Source of the DNA: Dysgonomonas hofstadii
GTDB lineage: Bacteria; Bacteroidota; Bacteroidia; Bacteroidales; Dysgonomonadaceae
NCBI RefSeq assembly: GCF_014196915.1
Contig: NZ_JACIEP010000009.1
Coordinates: forward strand, 62,001-126,000
Length of the DNA: 64,000 bases
Direction of reading: 5' to 3'
The position numbers and the translations under genes were made by a program. The notes beneath the pieces are model-generated. The model worked only from the letters and a program-made list of their open reading frames with translations. It was not told the DNA's origin and did not search any database. Positions 14,821-54,225 of this stretch are shown here, piece after piece (the first letter of the stretch is position 1; the number at the start of each line of letters is the position of its first letter).

Positions 14821-15819
14821 AACTCTATTATATTTTATTTGTTAGTAATAATCTTTCAAATATAAGTCATTTTCAGTTATCGGTTAACAAAAAACATGCA
14901 AATCTTATCGGTTTTAGGCAACTAACCACCGGCTTATAGTCATAAGTTTTTTCCATTTCACGCCGAAGAAGAATAATTAATAACGCGGATCAGTAGTTAA
15001 ATTTAATTGTTCTATTATTTTTTACTACGCGCAATCAAAGATTGCTTGTGTTCCTTTTGCCCAAAGCCGCAAAAGGAACCAAAAACGCTTTGGTGGCTCA
15101 TCCTCCGTGCGACCCGTTACAGGCTCACGGGCTAAATGGAAAGATTGTCCTGCGGACGCTTCCCATTTCACGCCCCTTTCGCCTGACGGGTGCCCCGCAC
15201 TTCGGACTAATGCCACCGGGCGGACGCCTGACAAGGGTGTGGTAACCTTTGTCGCCGCATTGCGACTCCGGCATACGTTCCGCAGGCGGGGCACCCAATC
15301 CGGCAGTGAAGGCGTAGAACAAAAAGCTGTTCGAGCTTACACGTAAGATTCGTATTTAGCCCTGCTGATGAGCGAGTTCTTTTTGTTCAGCCGCAACGCC
15401 GGTTTTGGGTCGCCGGAGGAATGAAGCCTTGATTTTTTGTAACTTTTGTATCAAGACAAAAGTTGAGAAAACAAGCCGACAGGCGCGTTAGTAAAATAGA
15501 ACAATTAAATTTAACTACTGATTCGCATTAACAACCGGATTCTTATATTTTCAAATATCTTAGTATTATAGAATTCTCCAATTAACACAATTTCAGATTT
15601 TTGTTTGAAAAAACCAATCCGGATAAAGAGTTTTTTCTTATTTTTAATTGCTTTTGCAGAGATCAGTTCAAGGCTGGATCATATCAAAATTTTCAGTGAT
15701 TTTTTATCAGGATTTCAGATAACATCTTGTAATCCGATTCAGAAAAACATAAACAGAAAAGACACTAAAATATAAGACTTCTATAAAAATAAAAATAGAA
15801 TATTAAAAGACAGTATATT
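14821..15819. other. intergenic region around repeat copy A
   Basis: About 1 kb lies between the SPFH gene (minus) and glycerate kinase (plus). Apart from the repeat at 14985-15526, the flanks (14821-14984 and 15527-15819) are A+T-rich. I saw no ORF, tRNA or convincing promoter with both boxes. Confidence 0.5.
14985..15526. repeat. structured TIR-bearing repeat, copy A (MITE-like)
   Basis: This 542-bp element is bounded by inverted termini reading GCGRATCAGTAGTTAAATTT inward from both ends, extending about 30 bp with one mismatch. It is flanked by ATTAATAAC on the left and ATTAACAAC on the right, a probable 9-bp target duplication with one mismatch. The interior is much richer in G+C than the surroundings. 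It contains perfect hairpins at 15050-15079 (GTTCCTTTTGC arms), 15441-15464 (AACTTTTGT arms) and a long-range pair at 15317-15326 with 15379-15388. It is inverted relative to copies B and C. ORFs run on both strands, but none looks like a conventional gene. No transposase is encoded, so it would be a non-autonomous element. Confidence 0.8.
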
Positions 15820-16968
15820 ATGAAAAAACCGGTATTTGTATTAGCACCCGATTCGTTTAAAGGTTCGTTAACCGCCGGACAGGTTTGCCTGGCAATGGAA
15901 CGAGGAATAAAAAAAGTGATGCCCGACGCAGAATGTATTAAAGTTCCCATGGCCGATGGAGGAGAAGGCACCGTACAATCACTTGTCGACGCAACCGGGG
16001 GTAAGATATATGAGCTGGAAGTTACCGGGCCTTTAGGCACACCAGTGATGGCTAAATATGGAATAATGGGAGACGGAAAAACCGCTGCTATCGAAATGGC
16101 TTCGGCCAGCGGTATTCATTTTGTAAATAAGGATACACGAAACCCACTTATCACTACGACTTACGGAACAGGTGAATTAGTAAAGGCATGTCTGGATAAG
16201 GGTATCAAGAAAATCATACTGGGAATCGGAGGTAGTGCGACAAATGACGGAGGAGCAGGTTTCGCACAAGCTTTGGGTGTAAGGTTTTTAGATAATCAGG
16301 GAAAAGAGTTACCTTCGGGAGGCGCAGCATTAAAGAATTTATCCGTAATAGATATTTCAGCTATTGACTCCCGCCTTCGGGACGTGGATATCGAAGTAGC
16401 CTGTGATGTAACCAATCCTCTTTGCGGAGAGACGGGTGCGTCTTATGTGTTCAGCCCACAAAAAGGTGCGACACCCGATATGGTCATTGAACTTGACAAT
16501 GCTTTGGAGCATTATGCCGAAATGATAAAGATGCAACTATTAAAAGACGTAAAAAATGTTCCCGGGGCTGGAGCTGCCGGAGGCTTAGGCGCCGGATTGC
16601 TGACTTTTGCCAATGCCCGTCTTGAAAAAGGAGTAGAGATTATTATCAGCTATACAAACCTGCGGGAAATAGTAAAGAAAGCCAATATTGTATTCACTGG
16701 TGAAGGAGGTATCGATTTCCAGACCCAATACGGAAAAACGCCTTATGGCGTGGCAAAAGTAGCCAAAGAAGAGGGTAAAAGTGTAATAGCCATAGCCGGA
16801 TATATAGGAAAAGGAGTTGAACAACTATACTCTTTCGGGTTTGACGCTATCTTAGGTATTATGCCGGGAGTGATGACAATGGAAGAGGCCATTGAGTCTG
16901 CGTCTGATAATGTGGAGAGGACAATTGAGAATATAGTAAGAATATTGAAACTGAACAATGCAGATTGA
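15820..16968 (+). CDS. glycerate kinase (type I, GlxK/GarK family)
   Basis: The 382-residue enzyme phosphorylates D-glycerate with ATP (to 2-phosphoglycerate in this family), feeding lower glycolysis from glycerate, glyoxylate or sugar-acid breakdown. Family motifs are LAPDSFKGSLTA at the N-terminus, PMADGGEGT near residue 45, GIGGSATNDGGAGFAQALG near 134-152, PGAGAAGGLGAG near 247 and TGEGGID near 296. Its length is standard. It stands alone on the plus strand, convergent with the GH89 gene. A hairpin at 17001-17040 lies between them. The ATG at 15820 directly precedes the conserved N-terminus, so the start is secure. Confidence 0.94.
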   Translation: MKKPVFVLAPDSFKGSLTAGQVCLAMERGIKKVMPDAECIKVPMADGGEGTVQSLVDATGGKIYELEVTGPLGTPVMAKYGIMGDGKTAAIEMASASGIHFVNKDTRNPLITTTYGTGELVKACLDKGIKKIILGIGGSATNDGGAGFAQALGVRFLDNQGKELPSGGAALKNLSVIDISAIDSRLRDVDIEVACDVTNPLCGETGASYVFSPQKGATPDMVIELDNALEHYAEMIKMQLLKDVKNVPGAGAAGGLGAGLLTFANARLEKGVEIIISYTNLREIVKKANIVFTGEGGIDFQTQYGKTPYGVAKVAKEEGKSVIAIAGYIGKGVEQLYSFGFDAILGIMPGVMTMEEAIESASDNVERTIENIVRILKLNNAD

Positions 16969-17000
16969 GTGTAAATATACACTTGCCTGATCGCCCTATA

Positions 17001-17040
17001 ATATATACAGTGAAAAGAAGTCTCTTTCCACTGTATATAT
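17001..17040. terminator. hairpin between convergent glycerate kinase and GH89 genes
   Basis: ATATATACAGTGAAAAG and CTTTCCACTGTATATAT form a 17-bp stem with one mismatch around a 6-nt loop. It sits 33 bp after the glycerate kinase stop and 48 bp after the GH89 stop. There is no strong T-tract, but a shared bidirectional terminator is the simplest reading. Confidence 0.6.
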
Positions 17041-17087
17041 CAAAATAAAAATTCTGCTAAAATCAACAATGCTTAACAAACTAAACT

Positions 17088-19295
17088 CTATTCGTTTTCG
17101 GTTTTATTTATTCTGTCGGCATACTTATTCATTAGCTCACAGACAACATCTACTGCCGGGATGGAATGATCGTAGACAGGCATAGGCTTTGTCGATTTAG
17201 CCCATTGTCTTTCATATATATCCAGTTCTTTCACAAAAGCTTTTTCATCAAATTTACGCCCGGCTTTTACATTGCTGATTACCTTATCTGTAAACATCTT
17301 CCAACGTGGCGCATAATAGGTAGACGTCAATCCCGCCCATGACCGGCGGGCATAATCGACCAAACGGTCGGTATCGCCCCATACAGAAAGAAGTGTACGG
17401 GCATTTCCTTCATAGAAATTCTTCGAAATATCATCTTTACCCATCGCACGGGCATCACCGATCCATTTCTCCAGAGAGAATGAAGGATGGTATGACAACA
17501 TCATATCCATGTCGTAAAGCAATGCCTGTAATTCTGTTGCCTTCTGCTCCATTAACGGAACTTCCTTTTTAAGATATGCCTGAGTAAACTCTTTCCTTAT
17601 TTCTACTGAATAATTGTCAAGCACTTGCCTTCCCACATTAATCACGTCGAATATGTAAGATTCCCGGTCAATAGATTTATCTCTCAGCAAGTTTTGCCAG
17701 ACCAGTAACAACGCTTTGTTATCGTAACCTATTTTCACATGCGAATTATCGAATCCCTCACCAGCAAATGTGGGGCGTATAGCTGCTGTTCCATACCGTG
17801 TATGTACTCCCTGGATATATATTTTATTGTACATATCGCGCCATGCCTTGCGCACAGGTTCACTTTGTTTTCCTATGCGCCTGTCAGCCAGCTTCTGAAT
17901 CCACAATTCATCCGAAACATTGTAGTTCCATGCTTTCTCCAAAACATATTCATACATGAACGGATTGATATCCAAGCCTTCGAGAGTACATCCTAGGCCG
18001 GCAAAGTTATCTCCACCAGATTTATAAACATTCCTGATCTTTTCGCCTGTTTCTTTCAGATTGCCGATCAGTGTGGTATTTTCTCCGAAATTGCCGAGAT
18101 AGCACCAGATAAACGGCCTGCCGTGATAACTGTCCGTACGCTTCCAGACTTCAGTATTATCGCAATAATAATCGAGCAGCAACATTTTGTCAGATGGTGG
18201 AGCGGTTATATATGATTCTATACGGTCGTCTGTCCATTTCTTCTGGGCGAAGTAGAACAGCCAGGTCATTTGCAGCCAGACTGCATCCTTATCCACCGCT
18301 TCTATCGACTTATACATATTTCCGGAATATGAAGCCAATGAATCGAGTCTCCAACTGGGCGGATCGATTTCATTGAACGGATCGATGCCATAAATATGAT
18401 CTGTGCCGAACAAACGGGTCTGCTCTTGAAGATAATCCTTCTGGATAGTAGCAAACAACGGATCAAGAGGATCGAGGAAGTGACATCTGTACTGATCTCC
18501 AAAACGAGCCCAATATTTTACCTGGGTCATCTTCAGGTCGGGGTAAATACGTTTGAGAGCAGGGGGTATGTGACCTGCAAAAGCCGGCAGTACGGGCTTC
18601 ATATTGAATTGCCGTTCCCGGGCTACAATTTTCTTTTGTAGTTCTTCCTGATCATCCATCCATTCCTCGGGCAAAGGGCCTTGCCATGAATCGATATTAG
18701 CCATACGGTGCCACGGCAAATAAGCCGGACCGGTAAAATAATTCCTTATCTCGTCATCGGTCAGTCCCAATCTGAACCATACCCTATGCCATACTGATTC
18801 CTGCCCGGTTGTAGCTAACGGCATATTTACTCCATTAAGCGCCATCCAGTCGATGAAACGTTCCCACTGTTCCCACTTCCACCACGGCATAGAGTATCCG
18901 AAAGTACAATAATTGAGAAAAAAGCGGTTGGCCGTTCTGGCTTCTATCCGCACTTTTGCCGGAACAGGCGGTAGCTTATCCGGCATACGGATGGAATCGT
19001 ATGAATGCCACGAGACTGTTGTAAGACAATAGTATTTAAGATAGTGATTCAATCCTACGGCCATTGAATTCTCATTATTTCCCCGGATCACAATATTTCT
19101 GTTGGAAGACTCAACTTCGAATACATCGATAGTATCTTCCTGTAAAACTTCGAACAGAAATTTGTCAGCATGAGCCGGGATCAGACGGATCACCATAGAG
19201 CGCATCACTTCATTATCCTTATTGTCCGTACAGGAAACATGGAACAACATCAGAGACAATAGAAAGATAACAATAGATATATTCAAATACTTCAT
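17088..19295 (-). CDS. alpha-N-acetylglucosaminidase, GH89 (NAGLU-like) lipoprotein
   Basis: GH89 enzymes remove terminal alpha-linked GlcNAc, for example from heparan sulfate ends or alpha-1,4-GlcNAc-capped mucin O-glycans. The 735-residue protein has a lipoprotein signal peptide (LFHVSC, Cys22), an N-terminal alpha/beta domain to about residue 115 and a GH89 catalytic barrel. Characteristic stretches are WWKWEQWERFIDWMALNG, GQESVWHRVW, PAFAGHIPPALK and GIDPFNEIDPP, the last holding an acidic residue in the expected active-site region. A helical C-terminal domain follows. It is the last gene of the minus-strand PUL and is separated from the preceding lipoprotein gene by a hairpin. The enzyme is probably anchored in the outer membrane or periplasm. 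Confidence 0.93.
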   Translation of the reverse strand: MKYLNISIVIFLLSLMLFHVSCTDNKDNEVMRSMVIRLIPAHADKFLFEVLQEDTIDVFEVESSNRNIVIRGNNENSMAVGLNHYLKYYCLTTVSWHSYDSIRMPDKLPPVPAKVRIEARTANRFFLNYCTFGYSMPWWKWEQWERFIDWMALNGVNMPLATTGQESVWHRVWFRLGLTDDEIRNYFTGPAYLPWHRMANIDSWQGPLPEEWMDDQEELQKKIVARERQFNMKPVLPAFAGHIPPALKRIYPDLKMTQVKYWARFGDQYRCHFLDPLDPLFATIQKDYLQEQTRLFGTDHIYGIDPFNEIDPPSWRLDSLASYSGNMYKSIEAVDKDAVWLQMTWLFYFAQKKWTDDRIESYITAPPSDKMLLLDYYCDNTEVWKRTDSYHGRPFIWCYLGNFGENTTLIGNLKETGEKIRNVYKSGGDNFAGLGCTLEGLDINPFMYEYVLEKAWNYNVSDELWIQKLADRRIGKQSEPVRKAWRDMYNKIYIQGVHTRYGTAAIRPTFAGEGFDNSHVKIGYDNKALLLVWQNLLRDKSIDRESYIFDVINVGRQVLDNYSVEIRKEFTQAYLKKEVPLMEQKATELQALLYDMDMMLSYHPSFSLEKWIGDARAMGKDDISKNFYEGNARTLLSVWGDTDRLVDYARRSWAGLTSTYYAPRWKMFTDKVISNVKAGRKFDEKAFVKELDIYERQWAKSTKPMPVYDHSIPAVDVVCELMNKYADRINKTENE

Positions 19296-19388
19296 ATAAG
19301 ATATATTTAATCAGGCAACAGCAAACTTATCGACAATGGTATTGCCGTTACCAATTCAGTTCTCTTAAAAAATCTGATTAGAAAAGAA

Positions 19389-19411
19389 GTGCAGAACGTT
19401 AAGTTCTGCAC
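19389..19411 (-). terminator. terminator/attenuator before GH89
   Basis: GTGCAGAAC and GTTCTGCAC are perfect 9-bp arms around a 5-nt loop. On the minus strand the stem is followed by a T-rich run (TTCTTTTCT). It lies just after the stop of the 503-residue lipoprotein gene and about 95 bp before the GH89 start. It probably lowers read-through from the SusC/SusD message into GH89. Confidence 0.65.
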
Positions 19412-19424
19412 ATCCTTTTATGAT

Positions 19425-20936
19425 TTATTTCTGAACGATTATTTTCAGTTTACACTTTTTGCCATATAAAGAGGCTACACCTGTATAATTAAATCCAGAT
19501 AGTCCGGAGCCTGTATAATAATCATTTGCTCCGCCACCGGTTGTTACATCGTCAATCTTACATCCATCGGATGATGCACCCGAATCGTCTGCCGCTGTAA
19601 TAACTTTTATAATACCATATTTATAATTACCTCCGGTTTGACGTTTAAACGCAATATACGTGCCATCCTGAATTTGAAGGCTGCATGTCCCGCTTGATCC
19701 CGCATTAATACGTTGTACGAGCAATTTGTCGTTAGCAGTTTCAGGAACATAGCTAGCCAGCAGATCGAGTGTTTCGTATGTTTGCCAGTTACCTGTGGTA
19801 TTTTCAAAGAAATCATCCAAATTCATAGATGCAACCAGATCATCAGTTATGACTTTGAAGAATGCCATATTTTTAGTCACCGGAGCTAACCAGCTTTCAT
19901 CTTTTTGGCGGCCTACCGGTCCTCCAAGTATACGTTCGGCTCCCACAAAAGCAAAACCCCTGTTAGCAACTCTACCAAAAGTCGTTTGATTTCGCCATAG
20001 ATTTGCAAACATGAAATCAACGCTTCCTCCTGAAGAGCCGGATATTTCGCGTAGAGACAGTACATTTTTGACTGTTCCTCCCACAGTTATACCATCCACA
20101 GAGAATACATACGGTTGGTCAGGATTAGACGGATTCTCCCATTCCGGAGCCATCTCAACATTGTCAAATATAGACGCTCTTCCCGATGGTATTCCCGTAA
20201 TCCTCTTTATATCTACGAAAGCGGTTGTTACTATACCTTTATTGTCGGTAACAATAATAGCGACAGCTTCTGCGTTTTCATCATCTACATTTACTGTAAA
20301 CTGGATATCCTTCTCCATTTCACCCGACACTGAAATGCTTGTAAGAGGATGTAATTCCTTATACGGTGATTTCTGCACAAGTGTGTATGTCAGTGTTTTC
20401 AATCCCTCGGTAGTTGTTATTTTTGCTTTTACCGTCACATCAGCATTAAGTTCCACTGTAGCTATTTCAGTTGGATCTGTCGTTACTTTAGGAGGGATGC
20501 CCGAGATATGGCTTATCGGGATTATCTGCTCACTTTCTTTGGTAAGGATATCCGTGGCCACGATCTTAAAGGCGGCAACATCTTCATAATTCACCGGTAT
20601 ATTGATCGAAAATTCCAATTTCTTGGGGAATTCATCCAGTTTAAAAGGAATACGCTTATCCTTATCTATCTCTTCATAACTATCGCCCACTTTCCGTAAA
20701 ACGGTTCCGTATACATCGCGTAATCCATTCGGGGATTCGACTACACCCGTCACAGTTTCTTCATTTGCATATACCACCTCATCTAATGATGCAGACGATG
20801 TGATACTGACCGACGGCGGCGGATATGCATTATCATCAAGATAGTTGATCTCTTTATCATCACTGCAACCGGTAAACAGTGTCGCAATGATCAACGGAAT
20901 ACAAAAAAGCGCATATCGTATATATCTATTTTTCAT
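19425..20936 (-). CDS. PUL-associated surface lipoprotein of unknown function
   Basis: I do not recognise the family. The 503-residue product has a lipobox (ATLFTGC, Cys24) followed by SDDKE, an acidic start typical of surface-exported Bacteroidota lipoproteins. Residues of about 45-245 look like two or three beta-sandwich repeats, including VTTDPTEIATVELNADVTV and a later repeat of similar composition. The C-terminal 240 residues are rich in Gly, Thr and aromatics. It sits between an EEP hydrolase gene and GH89. Position and architecture suggest a SusE/SusF-like glycan-binding role, but no binding residues can be pointed to. Confidence 0.65.
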   Translation of the reverse strand: MKNRYIRYALFCIPLIIATLFTGCSDDKEINYLDDNAYPPPSVSITSSASLDEVVYANEETVTGVVESPNGLRDVYGTVLRKVGDSYEEIDKDKRIPFKLDEFPKKLEFSINIPVNYEDVAAFKIVATDILTKESEQIIPISHISGIPPKVTTDPTEIATVELNADVTVKAKITTTEGLKTLTYTLVQKSPYKELHPLTSISVSGEMEKDIQFTVNVDDENAEAVAIIVTDNKGIVTTAFVDIKRITGIPSGRASIFDNVEMAPEWENPSNPDQPYVFSVDGITVGGTVKNVLSLREISGSSGGSVDFMFANLWRNQTTFGRVANRGFAFVGAERILGGPVGRQKDESWLAPVTKNMAFFKVITDDLVASMNLDDFFENTTGNWQTYETLDLLASYVPETANDKLLVQRINAGSSGTCSLQIQDGTYIAFKRQTGGNYKYGIIKVITAADDSGASSDGCKIDDVTTGGGANDYYTGSGLSGFNYTGVASLYGKKCKLKIIVQK

Positions 20937-20966
20937 AACTTATTTACTTTTTTTATTTATAATCAA

Positions 20967-21752
20967 TCAGTTTAAGGTCAAAATGGATATGACTGGCAGA
21001 TGATCCGATAATTGTACTTTCGGGGTATAAGCATCTTCAATCGTCCATATATTCTTAGGATAACAAAAAATATAATCGATTTTTGATTTCGGTGCTTTGG
21101 CCGGAATCGTATAGTCTGAACTGGCAGCCTGCAGCCAGTCATTCATATCGATATTGATTTCTTTCGAATCGGGCTTTGCATTGAAATCGCCACACAAGAT
21201 AGCCGGGCTCTCACTTTGCAGCAGGATATTATTAATAAATTTCACCTGCGCCTGCCTAACTTCCGAGGTCGTGTAATCGAGATGAGTACAGGCGAACGTT
21301 ATAGTTTGCTTTTCAGGTAGTTCTACCTCGCTGATTAAAACAGCCCTTTGCTCCTTCGCCCCTTCCGGCATCGGCAATAATATGCGTTTCGAGGAAGCAA
21401 ACGGATATTTGGAAAGAATCCCAATACCATAATATCCTCCTGCATACGGGATAGTCTTCCCATATAATGACAACATACCTGTACGAAAAGCCAGTTCGGA
21501 AATAAAATTCTTCCCGTTCTGGTGCGGAGCTCTTGTGCGCATTGTATTCACATCGACCTCCTGTAAAGCAACTATATCAGGATTCTCCTTCTTTATAAAC
21601 TCAGCCAGTTCTTCAAGGGATGCCAGTTCGCCAAAACGGAGATTATAGCACATTATTTTCAATGTTGTCTTTTCCTGTGCTGTGGCATAGCCCGTAGAAA
21701 TAAAGAAAAGTATGAGGAATCCAATCCAGAGGTTATATTTCTTATACATCAT
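20967..21752 (-). CDS. secreted endonuclease/exonuclease/phosphatase (EEP) family hydrolase, copy 2
   Basis: The 261-residue protein has a signal peptide (about 1-25) and the whole EEP fold: MCYNLRFG, VALQEVDV, the FACTHLDYTTSEVRQAQ histidine segment, LCGDFNAKPDS, KIDYIFC and LSDHLPV at the C-terminus. These supply the metal-binding and catalytic Asn, Glu, Asp and His residues of DNase I/sphingomyelinase-type phosphodiesterases. Secreted members cleave phosphodiesters in nucleic acids, lipids or phosphorylated glycans; the substrate is not visible from sequence. It lies 4 bp after a lipoprotein gene that separates it from a paralog (22561-23331), all inside the SusC/SusD operon. I infer action on a phosphodiester in the imported glycan. 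Confidence 0.88.
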   Translation of the reverse strand: MMYKKYNLWIGFLILFFISTGYATAQEKTTLKIMCYNLRFGELASLEELAEFIKKENPDIVALQEVDVNTMRTRAPHQNGKNFISELAFRTGMLSLYGKTIPYAGGYYGIGILSKYPFASSKRILLPMPEGAKEQRAVLISEVELPEKQTITFACTHLDYTTSEVRQAQVKFINNILLQSESPAILCGDFNAKPDSKEINIDMNDWLQAASSDYTIPAKAPKSKIDYIFCYPKNIWTIEDAYTPKVQLSDHLPVISILTLN

Positions 21753-21756
21753 CGCT

Positions 21757-22557
21757 TTATTTTAAATATTCTACTTGTACAAGGAAGCTCTTAATATTAC
21801 CCGACACTGTTGCCTCGGTCAATTCCCTGAACTTCCATTTTGGAGAACCCAGTACATAGATACTGTAAACACTGTTAGCATCTGAATTTTTCATAAGTTC
21901 CAGTGTATAGTTTCCCTTACCGAATGATTCGGATATTTTAGACTCAAACGCTGATGAGAGATTCCTTTTCACAACTCCGATTATCAGAGTAGAATTTCCC
22001 ACCGAACTCTTAATCAAACTAACACCTGCATCGAGCTGGCTTTCGGCATTGAAGGATACTGTCGAAAAATTCATAACCAGGCTTGATGTAAAATTCACAT
22101 CCTGCTTCATCAACCAGCAATAATCGGTTACTTTCCGTTGTTCCAAAGATTGTATCGGTTGATCGAACAGAACAGTGTTTCCTGTATAAGTATTATTACC
22201 CTTATCAACAGGGACAAAGACAGGGATATGTTTTGAAAGAGATGCTACATTTACACCCGGATTGGCCATTATTGCCCCTGTAAAAGAAACATTGCTCCGG
22301 TCGAGAAGTACGACCGCATGCTCCGTATTCTTAACAGTGTTGACTACAGTAGTATAATCCGTTCCGGAAAACAAGTTTCCTTCCGACAAAGTGGAAATAA
22401 CCAGCACTTTGGCTGTTCTGGATTTATCCCAGGGCTTTTCCTGCCCATTGCCGTTACCATTACCCGTATCGTCATCGTCACTGCCCGAACATGACATTAC
22501 TAAAAAGCAAAATGATAATAATAATGATGATATTTTCAATAAACTTTTCATATCCAT
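21757..22557 (-). CDS. surface lipoprotein between two EEP hydrolases
   Basis: The family is unknown to me. The 266-residue product has a lipobox (FLVMSC, Cys23) followed by SGSDDDD, an acidic export signal typical of Bacteroidota surface lipoproteins, then a Gly/Asn linker. The mature part alternates hydrophobic beta-strands with polar loops, and I see no catalytic motif. An internal Met codon two residues in is an alternative start with the same signal peptide. Spacings to both neighbouring EEP genes are 3-4 bp, so the three genes are translationally linked and probably work as a surface set. Confidence 0.7.
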   Translation of the reverse strand: MDMKSLLKISSLLLSFCFLVMSCSGSDDDDTGNGNGNGQEKPWDKSRTAKVLVISTLSEGNLFSGTDYTTVVNTVKNTEHAVVLLDRSNVSFTGAIMANPGVNVASLSKHIPVFVPVDKGNNTYTGNTVLFDQPIQSLEQRKVTDYCWLMKQDVNFTSSLVMNFSTVSFNAESQLDAGVSLIKSSVGNSTLIIGVVKRNLSSAFESKISESFGKGNYTLELMKNSDANSVYSIYVLGSPKWKFRELTEATVSGNIKSFLVQVEYLK

Positions 22558-22560
22558 TTC

Positions 22561-46195: not shown

Positions 46196-46222
46196 GGTAT
46201 TAATAGTTTAAATTTCTTATCA

Positions 46223-46384: not shown

Positions 46385-47905
46385 ATGATTTCAAAAAAAC
46401 CGATACTTCGCCTGTTATTATTTTTTACTTTATTACTAACAGGTATGGGTCTGTCTGCCGATGATAAAGCTACGCAAATAGAACAGGAAACCGTATCTGG
46501 TATAGAATTAAACAAAAATAGGTTTTTCAGATTCAATAACAGCATAAAACTATCATTCGATGCTTCCCTTCAAAAAGGTTATCAGCAATATTTGGAGTAT
46601 TTGGTTCGTATTACAGATATAAACAAACAGGAAATAAACGTTATATTGAGCCTGCAAAACGATACTCCCAGCGAGTTGTTGATCATATCGAAAGATAAGC
46701 TTTCCAAACATGCAATCGGCATATCGAAAGATGAATTCCTGAATAATGTAATCCCTTTTAATTTCATTATCGACCTGAAGTCGGATCAATTGACGATCGG
46801 CATAAAAGATACGGTGCTCATAGAAAACCGTCTGGGGCTGAAATCGCATACCGATTATAAGATTGTACTGGGCACTGTTAATAACAGATATAATACAAAC
46901 CAGAATACCCTTTCTTCTATAAAATTGTCCAATATTAGCTCTGATCCTGACCTTACAGGAGAGAAAGAGATAAATGAAAGTGGTAATTCCACTCTTCTTT
47001 GGGTTATTATAATCGTTATTCTAGATATTCTCATCTTTGCATACATTATAATAAAGAAGAGAAAGCAGAAGATACTGAAACGGGAACAGCAAGCTGTTAT
47101 TGACGGGACAGACCCGGAGGACGATAATATAATATTCCATCCCGAAATTGATATTAATGAAATAATAAAAGTGGATAGAAGTGCAGTTTTTCTATTCAAA
47201 CAGTTTGAGGTACTGGACAAAGAGAGGAATGATATTTCTTTCCGTTTCACACCATTGCTTAAAGAGTTATTCCTTATTTTACTATTGTTCTCTCAAAAAG
47301 ACAGCAAGGGTATTAGCACCGGATTACTCAGGGATTTATTGTGGTTTGACAAGGAACTACAAAGTGCAAATAACAACAGGGCTGTGAATATAGGCAAACT
47401 CAAAGGCATATTGGATGCCGTGGGGGGATATGAAATAGTTTCAAATCCTCATAATATCAGGATCGAAATAAGAGATGATATATATTGCGATTATATAAGG
47501 ATTATCTCTTTGCTTCATAACGAGAGTTTAAACAGGGAACAGATTCTGGAACTTGTGGCTATTGCCGGACGGGGAGCCTTTCTTCCGGAATGTAGCTATG
47601 AATGGCTCGATCCGTTCAAAGCAGAAATTTCGGATAAACTTATCGACAATCTCCTTAATCTCTCTGAATTGCCCAATATAAAAGAGGATAATAAACTGCT
47701 TGTACAAATTGCAGATACCATATTCAATATGGACGAACTTAATGAAAAGGCATTGGCTATAAAGTGTATCGCACTCGTAAATATGGGGAAACGCTCCATA
47801 GCTAATATAAGTTATAACCGGTTTTCGAAAGATTATGAAAATCTTTATGCTATGCCATATCCTATTTCCTTTTCTGAGATATTAAACCTATCCTTATTAA
47901 AATAA
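46385..47905 (+). CDS. membrane-spanning winged-helix regulator (ToxR-like layout)
   Basis: No named family is certain. The 506-residue product has a signal peptide/anchor (about 1-24) and a periplasmic beta-sandwich-like domain (about 35-185, resembling LamG-type folds). One transmembrane helix (203-223) is followed by a basic KKRKQK stop-transfer. The cytoplasmic part has a winged-helix-like segment (about 270-365, with FRFTPLLKELFLILLLFS and NIGKLKGILDAVGGYEIVS), like the DNA-binding wing of OmpR/SARP proteins, and a helical C-terminal domain (about 370-506). This suggests direct trans-membrane transcription control. The divergently transcribed LRR lipoprotein gene, 189 bp away, is the obvious target. 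Confidence 0.65.
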   Translation: MISKKPILRLLLFFTLLLTGMGLSADDKATQIEQETVSGIELNKNRFFRFNNSIKLSFDASLQKGYQQYLEYLVRITDINKQEINVILSLQNDTPSELLIISKDKLSKHAIGISKDEFLNNVIPFNFIIDLKSDQLTIGIKDTVLIENRLGLKSHTDYKIVLGTVNNRYNTNQNTLSSIKLSNISSDPDLTGEKEINESGNSTLLWVIIIVILDILIFAYIIIKKRKQKILKREQQAVIDGTDPEDDNIIFHPEIDINEIIKVDRSAVFLFKQFEVLDKERNDISFRFTPLLKELFLILLLFSQKDSKGISTGLLRDLLWFDKELQSANNNRAVNIGKLKGILDAVGGYEIVSNPHNIRIEIRDDIYCDYIRIISLLHNESLNREQILELVAIAGRGAFLPECSYEWLDPFKAEISDKLIDNLLNLSELPNIKEDNKLLVQIADTIFNMDELNEKALAIKCIALVNMGKRSIANISYNRFSKDYENLYAMPYPISFSEILNLSLLK

Positions 47906-47928
47906 GCAATTCATCTATTGAAAATAGA

Positions 47929-48600
47929 TTAACAATATCCAAATCTTTGAGGGCAGACCTCACGGCATTTCCAGCATTTCAGGTCGAGAACTCCTTTTGA
48001 CACAATATAACATGTCTTGCGGCAGGCTTTTGCGTCGAGATTACCTTTACCATCGAGTGCTGATGCAGGACATGAATCGGCACAAAGAGTGCATCCTTCG
48101 CAAAAAGAATAATTTACCAAGGGATCCGACTCCAATTCCAGATCTGTCAATAATGTACTAAACCATAACAGATTACCATATTTATCGTTGCACAACAGGT
48201 AATTGCGCCCTATAACTCCAAGGCCTGCCAATTCTGCAGCATGTTTCATCGAAATATTGCCGTAAAAACCACCGTTCTTTTCGTATTTACCACCTAACGA
48301 CCGAAAAACTTTTGTCCGGACTTTATGCGTTTTCAGTTCCGCAGACAGTTGCTCTGCCAGCGAATCAAGTTTTTCAACCATTCCATTGCGTATTGCGGTA
48401 TAGGAGACCGTATCCAAATTAAGAGTTTCTTGGGGAAATGTACACCCCAAAACAATGACTGACCTACATGCAGGAAACTTATCGACAGGTGAATGACCTT
48501 CCGGAGAGCTCGCAAATCTGTCAGTTGCCGCCACTCCGACAACATCAGCACCTAAAGACATTGCCAGTTCTTTTATAGCCTTTTTGTCCATCATACCCAC
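47929..48600 (-). CDS. 4Fe-4S double-cluster protein, short QueG-like
   Basis: The 223-residue protein begins like epoxyqueuosine reductase relatives (LAMSLGADVVGVAATDRF and ACRSVIVLGCTFP). It carries two cysteine clusters near the C-terminus: CEGCTLCADSCP and a second set ending LKCWKCREVCPQ. True QueG enzymes exceed 300 residues and have a cobalamin-binding domain. This one is shorter, so queuosine function is unlikely; an uncharacterised electron-transfer or reductive role is more plausible. It is monocistronic, with a weak hairpin (ATCTATT/AATAGAT, 47913-47929) overlapping its stop codon and facing the convergent membrane regulator. Confidence 0.8.
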   Translation of the reverse strand: MGMMDKKAIKELAMSLGADVVGVAATDRFASSPEGHSPVDKFPACRSVIVLGCTFPQETLNLDTVSYTAIRNGMVEKLDSLAEQLSAELKTHKVRTKVFRSLGGKYEKNGGFYGNISMKHAAELAGLGVIGRNYLLCNDKYGNLLWFSTLLTDLELESDPLVNYSFCEGCTLCADSCPASALDGKGNLDAKACRKTCYIVSKGVLDLKCWKCREVCPQRFGYC

Positions 48601-48634
48601 TCCCTTATAAAATAATGACTCAATATTGTAATTC

Positions 48635-48666
48635 GGGCTGTACCTGTTTTATAGCACAGCCCTTTT
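48635..48666. terminator. hairpin downstream of the GyrI-like gene
   Basis: GGGCTGT (48635-48641) and ACAGCCC (48656-48662) form a perfect 7-bp stem with a T-run on the plus strand. It lies 31 bp after the minus-strand stop at 48697 and upstream of the 4Fe-4S gene, so it probably ends the VOC/WYL/GyrI operon. Confidence 0.55.
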
Positions 48667-48696
48667 ACTTATCTTACTAAATTAAATGAATGAATT

Positions 48697-49170
48697 TTAC
48701 TTCACAGGAATACACAGATTCACTATCCATGGAGCATCAGCATCCTGTGTATCACCGGCGCAACTCATATACAGTTCATAGTGATCGCGGGTGTCACATT
48801 CATACCCTTTTTCACTTAAAACAGTATATACATTCTGCCAGGCTTCATTGTACTCAGCCATTGTCACCTCTACCTGCATCACGAAATACTTGCCTCCGCT
48901 TATTGTATAATCTTTCATTCCTTCGCCGGGTTCAATGCCTGAAAGGTTTTCCAGACAGGCTTCTGACCGCAACTCTCCGGCAGGAGTACTAGCCGGATCA
49001 TCATGGTAAACACCAGCCATTTTGGGAGAAGCGGCCCAAAGATTATTTGCTCCTGCCCATCCGGCCAATTTCTCAAATGCGCCACAAATACCTGAATAAT
49101 CTCCAATGTGTGAGATCGCAATTGTTCTTACCGGATCAAGATTCTTTATTTCTGTACTATTAATTTTCAT
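48697..49170 (-). CDS. GyrI-like small-molecule-binding protein
   Basis: The 157-residue protein matches the GyrI-like/AraC effector-binding fold. It has an opening TEIKNLDPVRTIAISHIGDYSG, a central GVYHDDPASTP and a GGKYFVMQVE strand, and ends WIVNLCIPVK. These stand-alone domains bind hydrophobic cationic compounds or drugs; some inhibit DNA gyrase. Its start codon overlaps the stop of the WYL regulator gene by 4 bp, so the two are translationally coupled. It may be the ligand sensor or a detoxifying partner for that regulator, which is an inference from coupling. Confidence 0.85.
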   Translation of the reverse strand: MKINSTEIKNLDPVRTIAISHIGDYSGICGAFEKLAGWAGANNLWAASPKMAGVYHDDPASTPAGELRSEACLENLSGIEPGEGMKDYTISGGKYFVMQVEVTMAEYNEAWQNVYTVLSEKGYECDTRDHYELYMSCAGDTQDADAPWIVNLCIPVK

Positions 49171-50108
49171 AAGTCTAATTTTTGAATGATTTGTTTTATA
49201 ATATCTTTTATTTCAACAGGTTTAACCACCGTTGTTGTGTCGGCATTTGCCAATACCCACCTTGCCAGGCCTTCGAGAGAGTAAGCCATGAAGGTTTGTT
49301 CTATTTTGTCATCTGCAAGTTCTTTCTCCGCAGTCAATCCCATATAATGGCACCTGTCGGCAAAATGCTTAGACACCTCTTTACTCGTATGCAGAACCAC
49401 TTCTATCAGACATTGAGGAGCATCGCATTCAAGAAGCGAGTCTAAAGGCGGATGTACTTTCGTATGTTTGTTAGCCGTTATTTTTATATTACCAATACGG
49501 TTGAGCCTGAACATCCGGTATTCTTTCCGCAAGTGACACCAGGCCGAAAGATACCAGTGGGGATGCGAATAGCTGATACCGACAGCTTCCAAAGGCCTTC
49601 TACTCTTATGGTCACCGGCATTGGTGTAGTCTATTTCGATAATCAGCTTTTCATTTATACTACTCAATATTACTTGCATCAGGTTGGGCAGGCTTTCACC
49701 TGCATTACGGCTTTTGTACACAGCAATGGAGTCGTCCATATCGTAGAGATATTTTTTATCTACTGCCCGCAAAGCGGCACGGATCTTATCCATTCCCTGA
49801 CGAAAATAGTTACTGTTCTGGGTATCGGTAAGCTGCTCGATAATCTTTTCGGCGGTAAGGAAAGCCATCGCTTCCTCCTTTGTGAACATCAATGAAGGTA
49901 ACCTGTAACCTTCAACTAAAGAATAACCGACTCCCGAATTACCGCATATAGGCACTCCTGCTTCCGACAGGGTATTCATGTCACGATAGATGGTACGCAA
50001 GCTGACCCCGAAACGTTCTGCCATTTCAGAAGCCTTAACAATCGGTCGCGACTGTAATTGCACCAATAGTGCCGATATGCGGTCAATCCGGTTTAAGTCT
50101 TTATCCAC
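49167..50108 (-). CDS. YafY-type HTH/WYL-domain transcriptional regulator
   Basis: The 313-residue product has an N-terminal HTH_11 domain (about 5-60) with KASEMAERFGVSLRTIYRDM and an effector-binding WYL domain (about 140-215) with YSHPHWYLSAWCHLRKEYRMF and RLNRIGNI. A WCX-like C-terminal extension ends EIKDIIKQIIQKL. WYL regulators respond to nucleotide or small-molecule ligands and repress or activate adjacent genes. It lies 9 bp after the VOC gene and overlaps the GyrI-like gene, forming a three-gene minus-strand operon that it probably controls. Confidence 0.93.
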   Translation of the reverse strand: MDKDLNRIDRISALLVQLQSRPIVKASEMAERFGVSLRTIYRDMNTLSEAGVPICGNSGVGYSLVEGYRLPSLMFTKEEAMAFLTAEKIIEQLTDTQNSNYFRQGMDKIRAALRAVDKKYLYDMDDSIAVYKSRNAGESLPNLMQVILSSINEKLIIEIDYTNAGDHKSRRPLEAVGISYSHPHWYLSAWCHLRKEYRMFRLNRIGNIKITANKHTKVHPPLDSLLECDAPQCLIEVVLHTSKEVSKHFADRCHYMGLTAEKELADDKIEQTFMAYSLEGLARWVLANADTTTVVKPVEIKDIIKQIIQKLDL

Positions 50109-50117
50109 TCTGTTATC

Positions 50118-50522
50118 TTATTCTATAATCAATGCCCAAGATACGCCAAATTTATCTATAATTTCAGCATATAGTTTAGCATAGTCGGGCTGACAAAGTT
50201 CGCATTTTATTTGTCCGCCGGCAGATAATTTTGCATAAATGTCTTTAAGTTGTTGATCTGTATCGCAAAATACAGTGATTGTATGCCCTAAAGAACCAAA
50301 ATCGGCCTTTGTACCGGGCATTGTATCTGCCACGCTAATGGTGCAGCCATTAAAGGTGAGGCAGGAATGGATTATTTTGTCCTTGTATTCTGCGGGACAT
50401 TCCATTTCCTGATATTCTCCATAGCGGTAGATTTCTCCGACAGTTCCGTTAAATACTCCGGCGTAGAAGTTTAGTGCTTCTTCCGCATTGCCGTTAAAGG
50501 CTAAATAAGGTTTAATTTTCAT
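50118..50522 (-). CDS. VOC/PhnB-like glyoxalase-fold protein
   Basis: The 134-residue protein is of the PhnB/DUF3598-like VOC type: KIKPYLAFNGNAEEALNFYAGVF at the N-terminus, then SCLTFNGCTISVADTMPG and a C-terminal KFGVSWALIIE. This fold binds small ligands or a metal in resistance and modification enzymes; the specific reaction is not predictable. It is the first gene of the VOC/WYL/GyrI-like operon. The beginning, MKIKPYLAFNGN, is standard for the family, so the start is firm. The upstream side is occupied by repeat copy B. Confidence 0.88.
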   Translation of the reverse strand: MKIKPYLAFNGNAEEALNFYAGVFNGTVGEIYRYGEYQEMECPAEYKDKIIHSCLTFNGCTISVADTMPGTKADFGSLGHTITVFCDTDQQLKDIYAKLSAGGQIKCELCQPDYAKLYAEIIDKFGVSWALIIE

Positions 50523-50633
50523 ATTCTAATATTTTTAGTTTAACTACAATGCAAAAGTATTATGCCGATTTGACAACAGTATGTCAACAAGTTTTTGAGT
50601 ATATAAGATTTTTATTAAATAAGTTTAGTTTAT

Positions 50634-51250
50634 GCGAATCAGTAGTTAGATTTAATCGTTGGATTATTACTAACGCGCCAGCCTGCTTGTTTTCTTTCAA
50701 CTTTTTTCTTGATAAAAAAGTTACAAAAACTAATTAAGATTGAATACACTACGTTCGGTAAATTTCAAGCAAGCTTGGCTTTACTCTCACTTAAACGTGT
50801 ATTTCAAGGCTTCATTCCTCCGGCGACCCAAAACCGGCGTTGCGGCTGAACAAAAAGAACTCGCTCATCAGCAAAGCTAAATACGAATCTTATACTTGAG
50901 CTCGGACAGCTTTTTGTTCTACGCCTCCACTGCCGGATTGGGTGCCCCGCCTGCGGAACGGATGCCGGAGTCGCAATGCGACGGCAAGGATTACTCTGCC
51001 TTGAGGTGGCTTTGCCCGGTGGCATTGATCCGTAGTGCGGGGCACCCGTCAGGCGAGAGGGGCGTGAAATGGAAAGCGTCCGCAGGACAATCTTTCCATT
51101 TAGCTCCTGAGCCTGTAACGGGTCGCACGAAGGATGAGCCACCAAAGCGTTTTTGGTTCCTTTTGCGGCTTTGGGAAAAAGGAACACAAGCAATCTTCGA
51201 TTGCGCGTAGTTAAAAATAATAGAACGATTAAATTTAACTACTGATTCGC
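50634..51250. repeat. structured TIR-bearing repeat, copy B (MITE-like)
   Basis: This 617-bp copy starts GCGAATCAGTAGTTAGATTT and ends with the inverted counterpart ACTACTGATTCGC. TTAGTTTAT lies immediately left and AAAGTTTAT immediately right, sharing the last seven of nine bases, a probable target duplication. Relative to copy A it is inverted. Internal hairpins recur: AACTTTTTT/AAAAAAGTT (50699-50722), GAACAAAAAG (50848-50857) with CTTTTTGTTC (50910-50919), and GGGTGCCCCGC with GCGGGGCACCC. Where the first hairpin differs from copy A (G-C replaced by T-A) both arms change. Long frames on both strands look incidental. Confidence 0.8.
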
Positions 51251-51687
51251 AAAGTTTATATGTGAGTATCAAATACAAACATATGAAAACCAATAATACC
51301 ATTTTGTCAAAAAAACAACCCCAATGCCCGGATTAATATTTCGATCACACAAATGTAACATATATTGAAAATCACCCTTAAGCCAGTCAGCTTTTTAATC
51401 AATAAATGAATACATCCAGATTTATGATTATCAGTATTATATCGACTCTATCATTCTTTTCTATTTACATTTGCCAACAACATATATACAACGCAATTAA
51501 GTAATCAGAACTAAATTTTAATAGAATAAAAGCTCAATATTATCTATAATGATAAGAAATATAAAATCGTTCAATGTCCTGGAGCACGGGTAGTTTGTCT
51601 TTATTTGTTTTTTTTAATAATAGCTTGGGAAAGTTTTTATTAAAGCCGGGACATTGAATATTTTATAAACAATCACAATTTAATATT
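51251..51687. other. intergenic region upstream of the secreted 651-residue protein
   Basis: This is A+T-rich. A 32-codon frame at 51406-51504 (+), with a hydrophobic stretch STLSFFSIYIC, might encode a tiny membrane peptide but has no other support. Nearer the gene lies the 10-bp inverted repeat listed separately (51570-51658). No complete -33/-7 promoter was found. Confidence 0.4.
51570..51658. repeat. 10-bp inverted repeat bracketing the leader of the 651-residue gene
   Basis: TTCAATGTCC (51570-51579) and GGACATTGAA (51649-51658) are perfect inverted arms separated by 69 bp and end 29 bp before the ATG. The bracketed segment contains a T8 run but no full TAnnTTTG box. The two HTH regulator genes nearby have a comparable arrangement. 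Confidence 0.5.
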
Positions 51688-53643
51688 ATGAAGACAAAAA
51701 TATTTGCCCTACTTAGCCTATTCCTTCTTATAAAAGGAAGCATGAATTCTTATTCACAAGTGACGATAGGATTAGGAGAGTCTCCCGAGAAATATGCCAC
51801 ATTACAAGTTAAAGATAAAGCAAGGGAAGTTTCAGCATCATTAGACGGAGCCACAGCAGACAAAGGAGGAATATTATTACCTCGTGTCGAATTGCAAAAA
51901 AGATATCAGTTATTGCCCTTTGTCGCCCAGGATATAGTCGATGCCAACGATCAGGATTATCAAGATGCAAAGCTAGTCCATACCGGACTGATTGTTTATA
52001 ATCTTACGGAGAATGATGATGAAGAGCTTTGCTTAGGACTAAACCAATGGGATGGGGAAAAATGGAATTGCTTCCAGACAAAACTGGGAAATGCCACTGC
52101 AATTTTGGGAAACTGCGATTCGCTTACATTTACGGGACAATATCAAAGCAATGTAGCATTAACTTCAGCCAACTACATGACAATGCCATTGCATGTAAAG
52201 AAAGCAGGAGCATACACGATTACAGCAGCGCCCAGTCCTGACAATGGCTATTATTTTACTGCTTCAGGTGTGTTTTTAACTGCTGGTTATTACTATCTGA
52301 CGATACCAGGCACCGGCATGCCGATAGATTATACTCCAGTAAATTCTGAAGGAGATTTAATAAAGATATCGTTCAATGGTAACTCGCTGGAAACCTGCGA
52401 TCCCTTACGTATAAAAATAGAAGATTCTTCGAAAAAACCTCTATATACGATGAATTGCAGTTCGGTCAGTGTCAAAGGCGTATATAAAATTGACATTCCA
52501 CTGGATAATACTAATTTTATCGACATCACATTAAATGCAGATATTGAAGCGGTAGGTTCTACATATACCATCGAAACCAATACTGTAGATGGTATATATT
52601 TCAAGGATTCGGGGCTTATAACGGGGATATCGCAGCCGGTCAAACTGATGGGACACGGAATACCCACAAGTTTAGACAACAAAGAATTTACTATAACATC
52701 CAATAGCAGCAAATCTGTGGCAACATGCCATGCCACGGTTGTTATGGTTATCCCTAAAAAAAGAATATATACCATCGGGCACGATGCTACTTTCGGTTAT
52801 AATCTTGCCGCAGGAGGGGGAGCCAGAAAGGTGCTGACCGCTCCTGCAAATTTTGGGACAAATGAATCCAGTATAGTGAAAACCGATATGGAAAACTATA
52901 CTTTCGTGATCAGTGACATTACAGGTGATGTTGCCAACTCGGTAGTACAGCAAATCAAAGATGAGCTGGCAAACAATAAGCCCGATATTCTATATATCAC
53001 TCAGGATGTTTATATCACAGCGATAAATGGCTTGGCAACTTCAATAATTGATTACCTGAACAAAGGTGGCGTCGTTGTATGCATGTGGGAAGCCAATCCC
53101 TACCTCAATGGCGGAGCCCAGATATTATTCAGGCAACTATTTGGAAACCAAACCATCACACAAACGAAAGGAATTGGCGCGTCCGGCGGTTCCGTTTATA
53201 CTTTCTCAAATGTGAACGATGAAATATTAAACGGCCCGTTTGGTGATGTCAGGGGCAAATATTGGGGAGAAGATGCCTCATGGGCTATGACATTATCTAA
53301 TCTGCCTGTAGGAGACCTTGAAATTTACACTTATGCAACTGATTATGGCAAAACGGGTACAGATGCCCCGGACCCGGGCAATGTAATAGCATTTAAGCAT
53401 AAGAAACTGAATCTGATATATGTGGGTGACGGTGGGTTTACTTCTTCTCCCAGTGGTGTTCCGGGAGGAAGTAATCTGATTTGTCCGTTCTATTGGAATA
53501 CCAATACCATGGCTCCTATTCCTAAACCAAATTATGGAGCCGGTACGACAAAATATGATGTTTACAACTCCCAAATGTGGTGTAACGTTATGGCATGGGC
53601 AATAAAACAAGCTCAATTTAATGGAATAAACACAATAAAATAA
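51688..53643 (+). CDS. secreted protein with Bacteroidota fibre-type leader domain and GATase-like C-terminus
   Basis: Function is unknown. The 651-residue product has a signal peptide (about 1-23). Its leader domain (24-130) is QVTIG at the start, GGILLPRVELQ in the middle and LCLGLNQWDGEKWNCF at the end. This pattern is common at the N-terminus of Bacteroidota surface proteins and is shared with the product of 58049. Residues of about 130-345 look like two beta-rich domains. The C-terminal part (about 350-640) has DILYITQDVYITAI and YLNKGGVVVCMWEANP, resembling a ThuA/GATase-1-like alpha/beta fold; I see no clear catalytic triad. It sits alone between repeat copies B and C, with an intrinsic terminator after it. 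Confidence 0.75.
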   Translation: MKTKIFALLSLFLLIKGSMNSYSQVTIGLGESPEKYATLQVKDKAREVSASLDGATADKGGILLPRVELQKRYQLLPFVAQDIVDANDQDYQDAKLVHTGLIVYNLTENDDEELCLGLNQWDGEKWNCFQTKLGNATAILGNCDSLTFTGQYQSNVALTSANYMTMPLHVKKAGAYTITAAPSPDNGYYFTASGVFLTAGYYYLTIPGTGMPIDYTPVNSEGDLIKISFNGNSLETCDPLRIKIEDSSKKPLYTMNCSSVSVKGVYKIDIPLDNTNFIDITLNADIEAVGSTYTIETNTVDGIYFKDSGLITGISQPVKLMGHGIPTSLDNKEFTITSNSSKSVATCHATVVMVIPKKRIYTIGHDATFGYNLAAGGGARKVLTAPANFGTNESSIVKTDMENYTFVISDITGDVANSVVQQIKDELANNKPDILYITQDVYITAINGLATSIIDYLNKGGVVVCMWEANPYLNGGAQILFRQLFGNQTITQTKGIGASGGSVYTFSNVNDEILNGPFGDVRGKYWGEDASWAMTLSNLPVGDLEIYTYATDYGKTGTDAPDPGNVIAFKHKKLNLIYVGDGGFTSSPSGVPGGSNLICPFYWNTNTMAPIPKPNYGAGTTKYDVYNSQMWCNVMAWAIKQAQFNGINTIK

Positions 53644-53738
53644 TAAATATACCCTATTAAAAAAATACTAGACTAGATCGAACTATCTATATTGCAAAAA
53701 CAAATTAGTGTAGTGTTGTAAAGTTTGTGTAAAGTTTG

Positions 53739-53773
53739 AAGCCCTGTAGGTCGTGAGATCAAACAGGGCTTTT
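53739..53773 (+). terminator. intrinsic terminator of the 651-residue gene
   Basis: AAGCCCTG (53739-53746) and CAGGGCTT (53764-53771) form a perfect 8-bp stem followed by TTATATTT. It lies about 95 bp after the stop codon and directly before repeat copy C. Confidence 0.8.
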
Positions 53774-53781
53774 ATATTTAT

Positions 53782-54225
53782 GTGAATCAGGAGTTAGATT
53801 TAAATGTTCAATTTTACTAACGCACCCTCCGGGTTTGTTTTTCATTTTAGCATTGCCCAAAACGAAACAAAAGGCTAGTGCCTGGTTCCCCGCCGACCTG
53901 TCATCGGCTTGCCGGCTAAACCAAATAAACTCGCCTGCGGCTCAGACAGTATTTGGTTTCACGCCGTCTTCACCGGACAGGTGCCCGTCGTAGGAACCTA
54001 TGCACGGAAAGCTGCCGCACGACAGGGGATTACCCTGCCTTGAGGTGGCTTCGCCCGGTGGCATTAAGCCGTAGTGCGGGGCACCCGTCAGGCGAGAGGG
54101 GCGTGAAATGGAAAGCGTCCGCAGGACAATCTTTCCATTTAGCCCGTGAGCCTGTAACGGGTCGCACGGAGGATGAGCCACCAAAGCGTTTTTAGTAGTA
54201 TAAGAGAAATGAACAATTATTTATT
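53782..54225. repeat. structured repeat, copy C, right end decayed
   Basis: This copy is in the same orientation as copy B. The left terminus (GTGAATCAGGAGTTAGATTT) is a diverged TIR. The core at 54034-54193 is nearly identical to copy B 50995-51154. After 54193 it departs, and only GAACAATTA remains of the right TIR, so it is a damaged copy. Its 5' part is quite different in sequence but keeps the long-range hairpin: AAACCAAATA (53918-53927) pairs with TATTTGGTTT (53950-53959) where B has GAACAAAAAG and CTTTTTGTTC. The conserved AACTCGC follows the first arm and GACAG precedes the second, as in B. Confidence 0.75.

Follow-up and report, generated by a model that had tools for sequence, protein, structure and literature searches.

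Bacterial miniature inverted-repeat transposable elements (MITEs), as introduced in PMC10969869, are intergenic, multi-copy sequences which carry terminal inverted repeats (TIRs) and target duplications, encode no transposase and are structured if transcribed. Two examples from the Bacteroidota, outlined in PMC4596501 and PMC9769881 respectively, are BrickBuilt of Porphyromonas gingivalis and a Cardinium MITE. Both have TIRs and lack a transposase; BrickBuilt contains a minisatellite and has TIRs similar to those of known insertion sequences (ISs), and intact copies of the parent IS982-family element exist for the Cardinium MITE. Another class of dispersed repeats, the repetitive extragenic palindromic (REP) sequences, comprises units of 20–40 bp with a GTAG or CGTC tag, the former tied to a tyrosine transposase, according to the summary in PMC3733652. 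Here we describe a gene-free, TIR-bounded element which is present in three copies, A, B and C, in a 64,000-nucleotide stretch of the Dysgonomonas hofstadii genome, referred to throughout as the window.

The element resembles all of these in part. It shares TIRs, target duplications, the absence of a transposase gene, an intergenic, multi-copy distribution and a structure that would form on transcription with the MITEs introduced in PMC10969869. Unlike those outlined there, its body consists of two divergent, Bacteroidia-wide structured units with covariation of base pairs, of loop and linker and possibly of base triples, and no parent IS was found; in contrast to BrickBuilt and the Cardinium MITE as outlined in their reports, neither a known IS with similar TIRs nor a parent element was found here. 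With REP sequences, their paired form (bacterial interspersed mosaic elements, BIMEs) and the REP-associated tyrosine transposases (RAYTs) it has in common dispersed palindromic units, single or paired, but in contrast to the REPs summarised in PMC3733652 the units are about 200 nt long, lie within a TIR element with a 9-bp duplication and are not found near the two Y1_Tnp genes of the genome. None of the titles and abstract beginnings listed from the open-access PMC library describes the element. It is a real mobile, non-autonomous TIR element of a generally known kind; what is conserved in it is a structured single-strand unit that has no Rfam match, and it possibly carries a new structured RNA class. 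Taken as a whole, it is probably a MITE-like element mobilised in trans, carrying divergent structured units with a predicted pseudoknot which would most likely act as RNA.

The genome that carries the window (G000, 5.04 Mb) contains about 40 copies of the element, each of 0.5–0.6 kb. Element ends match GCSAATCAGTAGTT, and the 23-mer TIR, with at most 3 mismatches, occurs at 35 places genome-wide compared to none for the reversed control, so that the termini do recur at other insertion sites. TIRs exist in short and long forms, mixed between the two ends. Inspection of 46 stretches of this genome gave 32 with TIR pairs, of which 31 were used for the analysis of target-site duplications after removal of L055, a probable wrong TIR pairing. 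The 9-bp flanks of these 31 elements are 73.5% identical, against 60.4% (sd 1.8) with right flanks permuted, a level reached in 0 of 2000 permutations; for flank lengths from 4 to 13, only 8 is slightly in excess besides 9 (60/2000). Four flank pairs are perfect and seven match at 8/9 positions (11/31), and the target-site consensus is ATWAWTWAT. This excess over permutation indicates that the element inserts with a 9-bp stagger, moving like a non-autonomous TIR transposon (MITE), in agreement with the mobility proposed in a sequence-only reading of the window. Recurring TIRs, a target duplication of fixed length and a short, multi-copy body without a transposase gene are thus all present. Four divergent pairs in the same genome (L221, L224, L225 and L226) have different, shorter ends of the GGTCNTTTT type instead of GCSAATCAGTAGTT; they may be old copies or may belong to another TIR family.

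One structured unit, present in two diverged copies which point away from each other, makes up the element body. In a comparison of 23 elements (L071 and elements outside 480–660 bp being left out), reverse-complemented left halves are homologous to right halves, the best pair, from different copies, reaching 74% over 220 nt (E 9e-31); each element is therefore a divergent pair of one unit. A covariance model of the unit, R1, with 31 pairs, gives 83 matches in G000, a lower bound since 150 of 981 candidates were scored, and 70 of them form 35 divergent pairs with the minus-strand unit first. Divergent pairs are also present in other species. In another genome, G015, two elements of about 396 bp (L209 and L210) have the same TIRs and one unit, the other half being replaced by a small palindrome, TTACTAGTTACTT..AAGTTACAAGTAA.

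Each unit folds into several hairpins, which are, from the centre of the element outward, a long hairpin (hp2), a second one (hp1) and a small one (hp0). In nearly all folded units, hp2 has the order stem0 – [ATTA/GA] – stem a – [GGGG/C] – stem b – [often GAAA or GAGA/GA] – stem c – [GTR/A] – stem d – apex; the exceptions are a few minimum-energy folds, e.g. L044_R. This fold is shared across species despite little other sequence likeness. In an alignment of 22 units (A1; sequences with N were excluded from the folding tests), 86.2% of the pair cells hold standard pairs compared to 35–45% when partners are slid by 1–3 columns, and the covariation score is 0.449 against 0.219 (sd 0.011) in shuffles. 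R1 finds 121 matches in 81 other loci, including those of untrained species (D. alginatilytica, G029, D. sp. 216 and a metagenome-assembled genome, MAG, labelled Prevotella Hs463). In the corresponding alignment A3 (114 distinct rows), 90.3% of the cells are paired against 35–48% in slid controls; the score is 0.578, compared to 0.197 (sd 0.006) for shuffled and at most 0.099 for slid alignments, and 30/31 pairs have changed on both sides. Outside the model, an hp1 with a stem of at least 9 follows hp2 in 111/118 A3 matches and 22/25 matches from other genera, weak ones included, where mononucleotide shuffles lead to an expectation of 8.5 and 2.1 and the upstream side gives 5/116 and 4/25; weak R1 matches are therefore also supported. 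At the gathering threshold of Rfam 15 the window has no match, and five loci examined at E ≤1 have only two weak miRNA matches, both outside the element.

Two further features of the hairpins may be mentioned. An apex motif of hp2, CTGTTTGAGC..GCGAGTT, occurs in L244, L247, L278 and L281 (and in L280 with one change), that is in several families, and also in some Dysgonomonas units not of the AATGG type; it leaves room for tandem G.A pairs. A palindromic repeat of about 40 bp (like GACTCGCCTNCGCTTCGTCGATCGTTGATT), a smaller nested repeat, lies in or near hairpins of L046, L221, L307 and L067.

The hp1 loop has its complement in the linker that joins hp2 to hp1, and the two change together: CTTGAT/ATCAAG, CTTGAC/GTCAAG, CTTGAG/CTCAAG, CTTGAA/TTCAAG, CCAAAGC/GCTTTGG, CTGAT/ATCAG and ACAGCG/CGCTGT. 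Over 54 clusters, the longest match averages 4.48 compared to 3.60 (sd 0.13) with linkers permuted (0/1000), and over a set of 38 clusters it is 4.84 compared to 3.80 (0/2000). The larger test drew on 180 hand-chosen units (all 121 of A3, 51 from loci of other genera and 8/64 from a second genome, G003), 14 of which had no usable hp1; the smaller one left out 4/25 extra units. The matched linker piece ends 5–9 bases before hp1 in 25/36 distinct cases. Because this complementarity covaries, the linker and hp1 are predicted to form an H-type pseudoknot in which the linker pairs with the hp1 loop. The claim that the folded form is under selection is thereby strengthened: cross-species covariation stands well above shuffled and slid controls in both alignments, and this second covarying interaction goes beyond what simple correction of a palindrome would give.

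Between the matched linker piece and hp1 lies a T-run, with at least 4 T in 42/54 clusters, and the 3′ arm of hp1 has at least 4 A in 46/54. In a pseudoknot with telomerase-type geometry, the major groove of hp1 would accommodate such a run in parallel orientation to the A-rich strand. The third-strand match is 4.94 compared to 4.41 (sd 0.11) in permuted sets (0/1000), and an AAAGAAA-like arm often occurs with a TTTCTTT-like T-run. A C interrupts the T-run in 7/13 clusters with an AAGAA-type arm against 2/41 others (p 2.7e-4); the two exceptions (L239 and L243), counted against the triple reading, also have interrupted arms which the pattern missed, and six of the 13 'interrupted' clusters lack a C in the T-run, with a wrong hairpin in one (L093) and a G at the outer end of the A-run in the other five. 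In one genome, G370, five of the six listed matches (L239 and L267–L270) combine either the arm AAAAGAAAG with the T-run TTTTCTTTC (3 units) or AAAAGAAAA or AAAAGAAAAG with TTTTCTTTTC (2 units), such that run length and C/G position co-vary in 5/5 units, in parallel (mirror) order. For the ten units with C in the T-run, parallel order is better than direct in 6, equal in 4 and worse in none. These patterns suggest, from few lineages, that the T-run is a parallel third strand in a U.A-U/C+.G-C triple helix.

Pseudoknots with triple helices are known from telomerase RNA and the SAM-II and preQ1-II riboswitches, and triple helices also occur in the ENE elements of transposon RNAs. The predicted topology is similar: in an H-type pseudoknot, the major groove of a stem rich in A-U pairs takes up a U-rich strand. 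The structure differs from these examples in its unrelated sequence, its occurrence as dispersed bacterial repeats and the absence of an Rfam match, and is here a prediction only. The pseudoknot and the U.A-U pattern are also the reason for a lean towards RNA: the folded form appears to be selected as a single strand, and this strand is more likely RNA than DNA. Mismatch types in 29 clusters (G.U 59 vs A.C 31, A.G 69 vs C.T 14) favour the strand that is read outward. The difference in folding energy between strands, considered as a further RNA signal, was discarded (−7.7 kcal/mol for units read outward vs −7.1 in shuffled sequences).

Within the window, A and B are intact elements and C has lost its right terminus. 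Element A (14985..15526, 542 bp, with two TIRs and two divergent half-units) is flanked by ATTAATAAC (14976..14984) and ATTAACAAC (15527..15535), and element B (50634..51250, 617 bp) by TTAGTTTAT (50625..50633) and AAAGTTTAT (51251..51259); the imperfect 9-bp duplications previously noticed for both are present, with 8/9 and 7/9 matches respectively. The shared inverted termini attributed to all three copies exist in A and B, whereas C has the left TIR only. Compared to the TIR 14-mer, the left end of A has 1 mismatch and the right end of A and both ends of B have none, and the inverted arms are 36 nt long and 94% complementary in A, 42 nt and 88% in B. The left TIR of C, at 53782, has 2 mismatches and there is no right TIR: the inner part of a long-type TIR is kept (54211..54240, minus strand), and about 14 bases at its end are missing, as are the distal hairpins of this half. 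Within the window alone, the 14-mer with at most 3 mismatches is found 7 times against 5.3 expected, which is not significant.

The left unit of A, on the minus strand, includes hp0 (GCAATC-TTT-GATTGC, 15031..15045), hp1 (GTTCCTTTTGC..GCAAAAGGAAC, 15050..15079), the linker CCAAAGC, complementary to the hp1 loop GCTTTGG, together with the T-run TTTTTG (15080..15093), and the hp2 core (15101..15205), a match to R1 as are all the hp2 cores given here. Its right unit, on the plus strand, comprises the hp2 core (15279..15421), the linker CTTGAT, complementary to the loop ATCAAG, with the T-run TTTTTG (15428..15439), and hp1 (AACTTTTGT-ATCAAG-ACAAAAGTT, 15441..15464). The minus-strand half of B has hp1 (AACTTTTTT-ATCAAG-AAAAAAGTT, 50699..50722), an insertion of ~65–75 bases in the linker between hp2 and hp1 (50739..50803) and the hp2 core (50815..50957); the plus-strand unit has the hp2 core (51029..51134), followed by the linker CCAAAGCG, T-run and hp1 (51142..51185). 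In C (53782..54243, right end truncated), hp1 (53843..53864) and the hp2 core (53885..53995) form the minus-strand unit and the plus-strand unit has kept the hp2 core (54069..54173) without hp1 and hp0. A near-identical copy of the B linker insertion was found in L206. The same element copy (G000:C16, about 79600–80000) also includes another dispersed-looking sequence, CTTTGTCATCCTGACCGCAGGGAAGAATCTC.

Modules are shuffled between copies by recombination. All four combinations of hp1 types T1/T2 with hp2 types AATGG/AACCA occur (11, 1, 4 and 4 of 23 elements), the remaining elements being two T3 and one untyped. Of the R1 right halves, 5/7 face the hp2 type AACCA, as against 0/16 of the R2/R3 halves, whose arm is nearly identical to it (Fisher 6e-4, with copies that are not independent); we take this to mean that identical arms in opposite positions are avoided. 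The arm changes quoted by the sequence-only reading for the hairpins of A, B and C are all found in the sequence. As paired-arm changes they stand in part: from GAACAAAAAG to AAACCAAATA, an entire hairpin has been exchanged between variants of one half, in place of a series of single compensations; single compensatory pairs are abundant across the family in the A1 and A3 alignments. Not noticed in that reading were the two divergent units per element, the predicted pseudoknot, the occurrence of units beyond the genus and the lost end of C.

R1 matches occur in 24/393 Bacteroidales genomes and in 18/206 genera, and in 7/395 genomes drawn from the whole phylum, the other six belonging to one family of the same class; both genome counts include the D. 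hofstadii genome itself and are lower bounds, with 9 candidates scored per genome and strict filters. A 28-base hp1 pattern occurs in 99 contig stretches, and the 80 listed belong to Dysgonomonas species, to two MAGs with the label Prevotella and to a 'Bacteroidia bacterium'. D. alginatilytica DSM 100214 is among the strains with copies. In genomes other than those of Dysgonomonas, units frequently stand alone at scattered sites (G028 and G115) or again form divergent pairs (L278 and L289). Tandem units are also found in other families, with three copies each in L257 (G248), 800–840 bp apart, and L280 (G480), 293 bp apart; all open reading frames (ORFs) in the L257 array are shorter than 70 aa. 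Searches of plasmids and phages gave no match to element A, and a search of IMG/VR none to one exact apex pattern.

Five loci (L001, L003, L008, L025 and L028) share a neighbouring ORF of at least 58% identity in a comparison of 30 loci of G000 with 33 of G003, a count which leaves out hits within the repeat and matches of 26–44% identity and comes without a chance expectation. In the case of L025/L312, both sides are shared and the element lies between the same two orthologous genes in the two genomes. At four of the five sites the copies are far more like other copies of their own genome; against this, three of the four G003 copies find their best match in G000 at the shared site itself, the windows compared including gene sequence in at least some of these cases. 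Shared sites could reflect either an old insertion with homogenisation by gene conversion or repeated hits in the same gaps. G003 also has a pair upstream of the gene beside element A, which we take to be glycerate kinase-like, and six other relatives with this gene have no pair. Genes flanking 30 loci are divergent in 11 cases, convergent in 7 and co-directional in 12; this count of ORFs is rough and lacks a genome baseline.

No transposase is seen inside the element, as had been concluded from the window. Open frames reach 144 codons in some copies, and the longest ones differ in strand, position and length from copy to copy. Pairs of TIRs 850–4000 bp apart (14-mer, at most 2 mismatches) are absent from 752 kb of loci; in G003, G015 and G029 (at most 1 mismatch) one pair of IS size was found, of 1.2 kb, in G003 (L214). 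This was rejected as an autonomous partner, as it includes a 143-aa ORF with the look of a signal peptide and only a sub-threshold cupin match. The sole DDE_Tnp_1 gene of G000 was rejected as a mover since it has its own inverted repeats, ACCCGTAGTGCATTT. Three partnerless TIRs (on C4, C7 and C17) were also set aside as autonomous copies because the adjoining ORFs, judged by eye only, are not transposase-like.

The properties that define the element would also fit an ordinary MITE, whose palindromes are kept at the DNA level by template switching or hairpin-tip conversion, whose hairpins are swapped by recombination and whose fold has no function. Its TIRs, target duplication and gene-free body are typical, some copies are mosaics or have exchanged whole hairpins, and both halves are long imperfect palindromes. 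However, the asymmetric loops (GGGG/C, ATTA/GA and GTR/A) are unpaired in nearly all folded units, although arm correction would erase them; the pairing between linker and loop lies outside a simple palindrome and yet covaries, and single units persist in other families. We consider this account unlikely.

We judge it equally improbable that the element works at the level of DNA, single-stranded hairpins (on the lagging strand or in cruciforms) being recognised by a protein as for REP/BIME or IS200-type systems, and the units being complex transposon ends. The inverted pairs are BIME-like, G000 includes two Y1_Tnp genes and the polarity of the units is the same toward each element end. Neither Y1_Tnp gene, however, has an R1 match within its 1.5-kb flanks, and units elsewhere are also single or tandem. 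With a symmetric cruciform, no excess of G.U over A.C or of A.G over C.T would be expected, whereas the 29 clusters show both (15 representatives giving only 7 vs 4). Moreover, a 9-bp duplication is not known as the IS200/IS605 mode of insertion. Finally, a small protein-coding ORF with covariation as a by-product can be dismissed as highly improbable: despite open frames of up to 144 codons in some copies, the longest frames are inconsistent among copies, three frames of element B gave no match in a Pfam scan and pairing explains the changes.

Several observations weigh against a trans-mobilised element with a structured, RNA-acting unit as we understand it. As to mobility, no empty-site pair was obtained, and neither a transposase nor an autonomous copy was found among one DDE family, one Y1 family and the TIR pairs of a few genomes, to which the search extended. 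Of the 83 R1 matches in G000, 13 are unpaired. The A3 alignment is model-fitted, L078, L094 and L099 supplied training rows and some other A3 loci are from the training species. Linker–loop complementarity of at least 5 is found in 24/38 clusters, not in all, and the insertion in the B linker separates the loop-complementary piece from the T-run. The earlier, fold-derived count of mismatches which gave 7 vs 4 covered only 15 representatives. With respect to the triple helix, the T-run is uninterrupted, and thus uninformative, in most clusters; the ten informative units represent about five lineages, and five of the ten come from one genome, G370. Where the T-run ends in G (L238, L278, L281 and L282), the direct-repeat match is as long or one base longer.

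Following the interpretation of a MITE-like element mobilised in trans, a probable DDE-type transposase would cut AT-rich ATWAWTWAT sites with a 9-bp stagger. Owing to the divergent arrangement, a read-through transcript arriving from either side would carry one unit in the orientation in which it folds. Within the pseudoknot, the T-run of the linker may occupy the major groove of hp1 as a third strand beside its A-rich strand. The unit would most likely act as an RNA element in such transcripts, in protection or processing of RNA ends or as a substrate for its own spread. A more specific proposal, which we put forward only tentatively, is that the units form a new, Bacteroidia-wide class of structured RNA which is a genomic parasite, defined by a long hairpin with internal loops and a pseudoknot with a pyrimidine triple helix, and that in Dysgonomonas two such units, borne back to back between TIRs, give every transcript that crosses the element one folded copy, which protects or processes the RNA or aids the element's spread.

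Bacterial MITEs are usually treated as leftover transposon ends; in this element it is the body that is conserved. As RNA, the unit would be an undescribed structured RNA with a pseudoknot which possibly holds a triple helix; as single-stranded DNA, it would be an unusual recognition structure. Either way, the element provides a sequence-level handle on what small structured repeats do.

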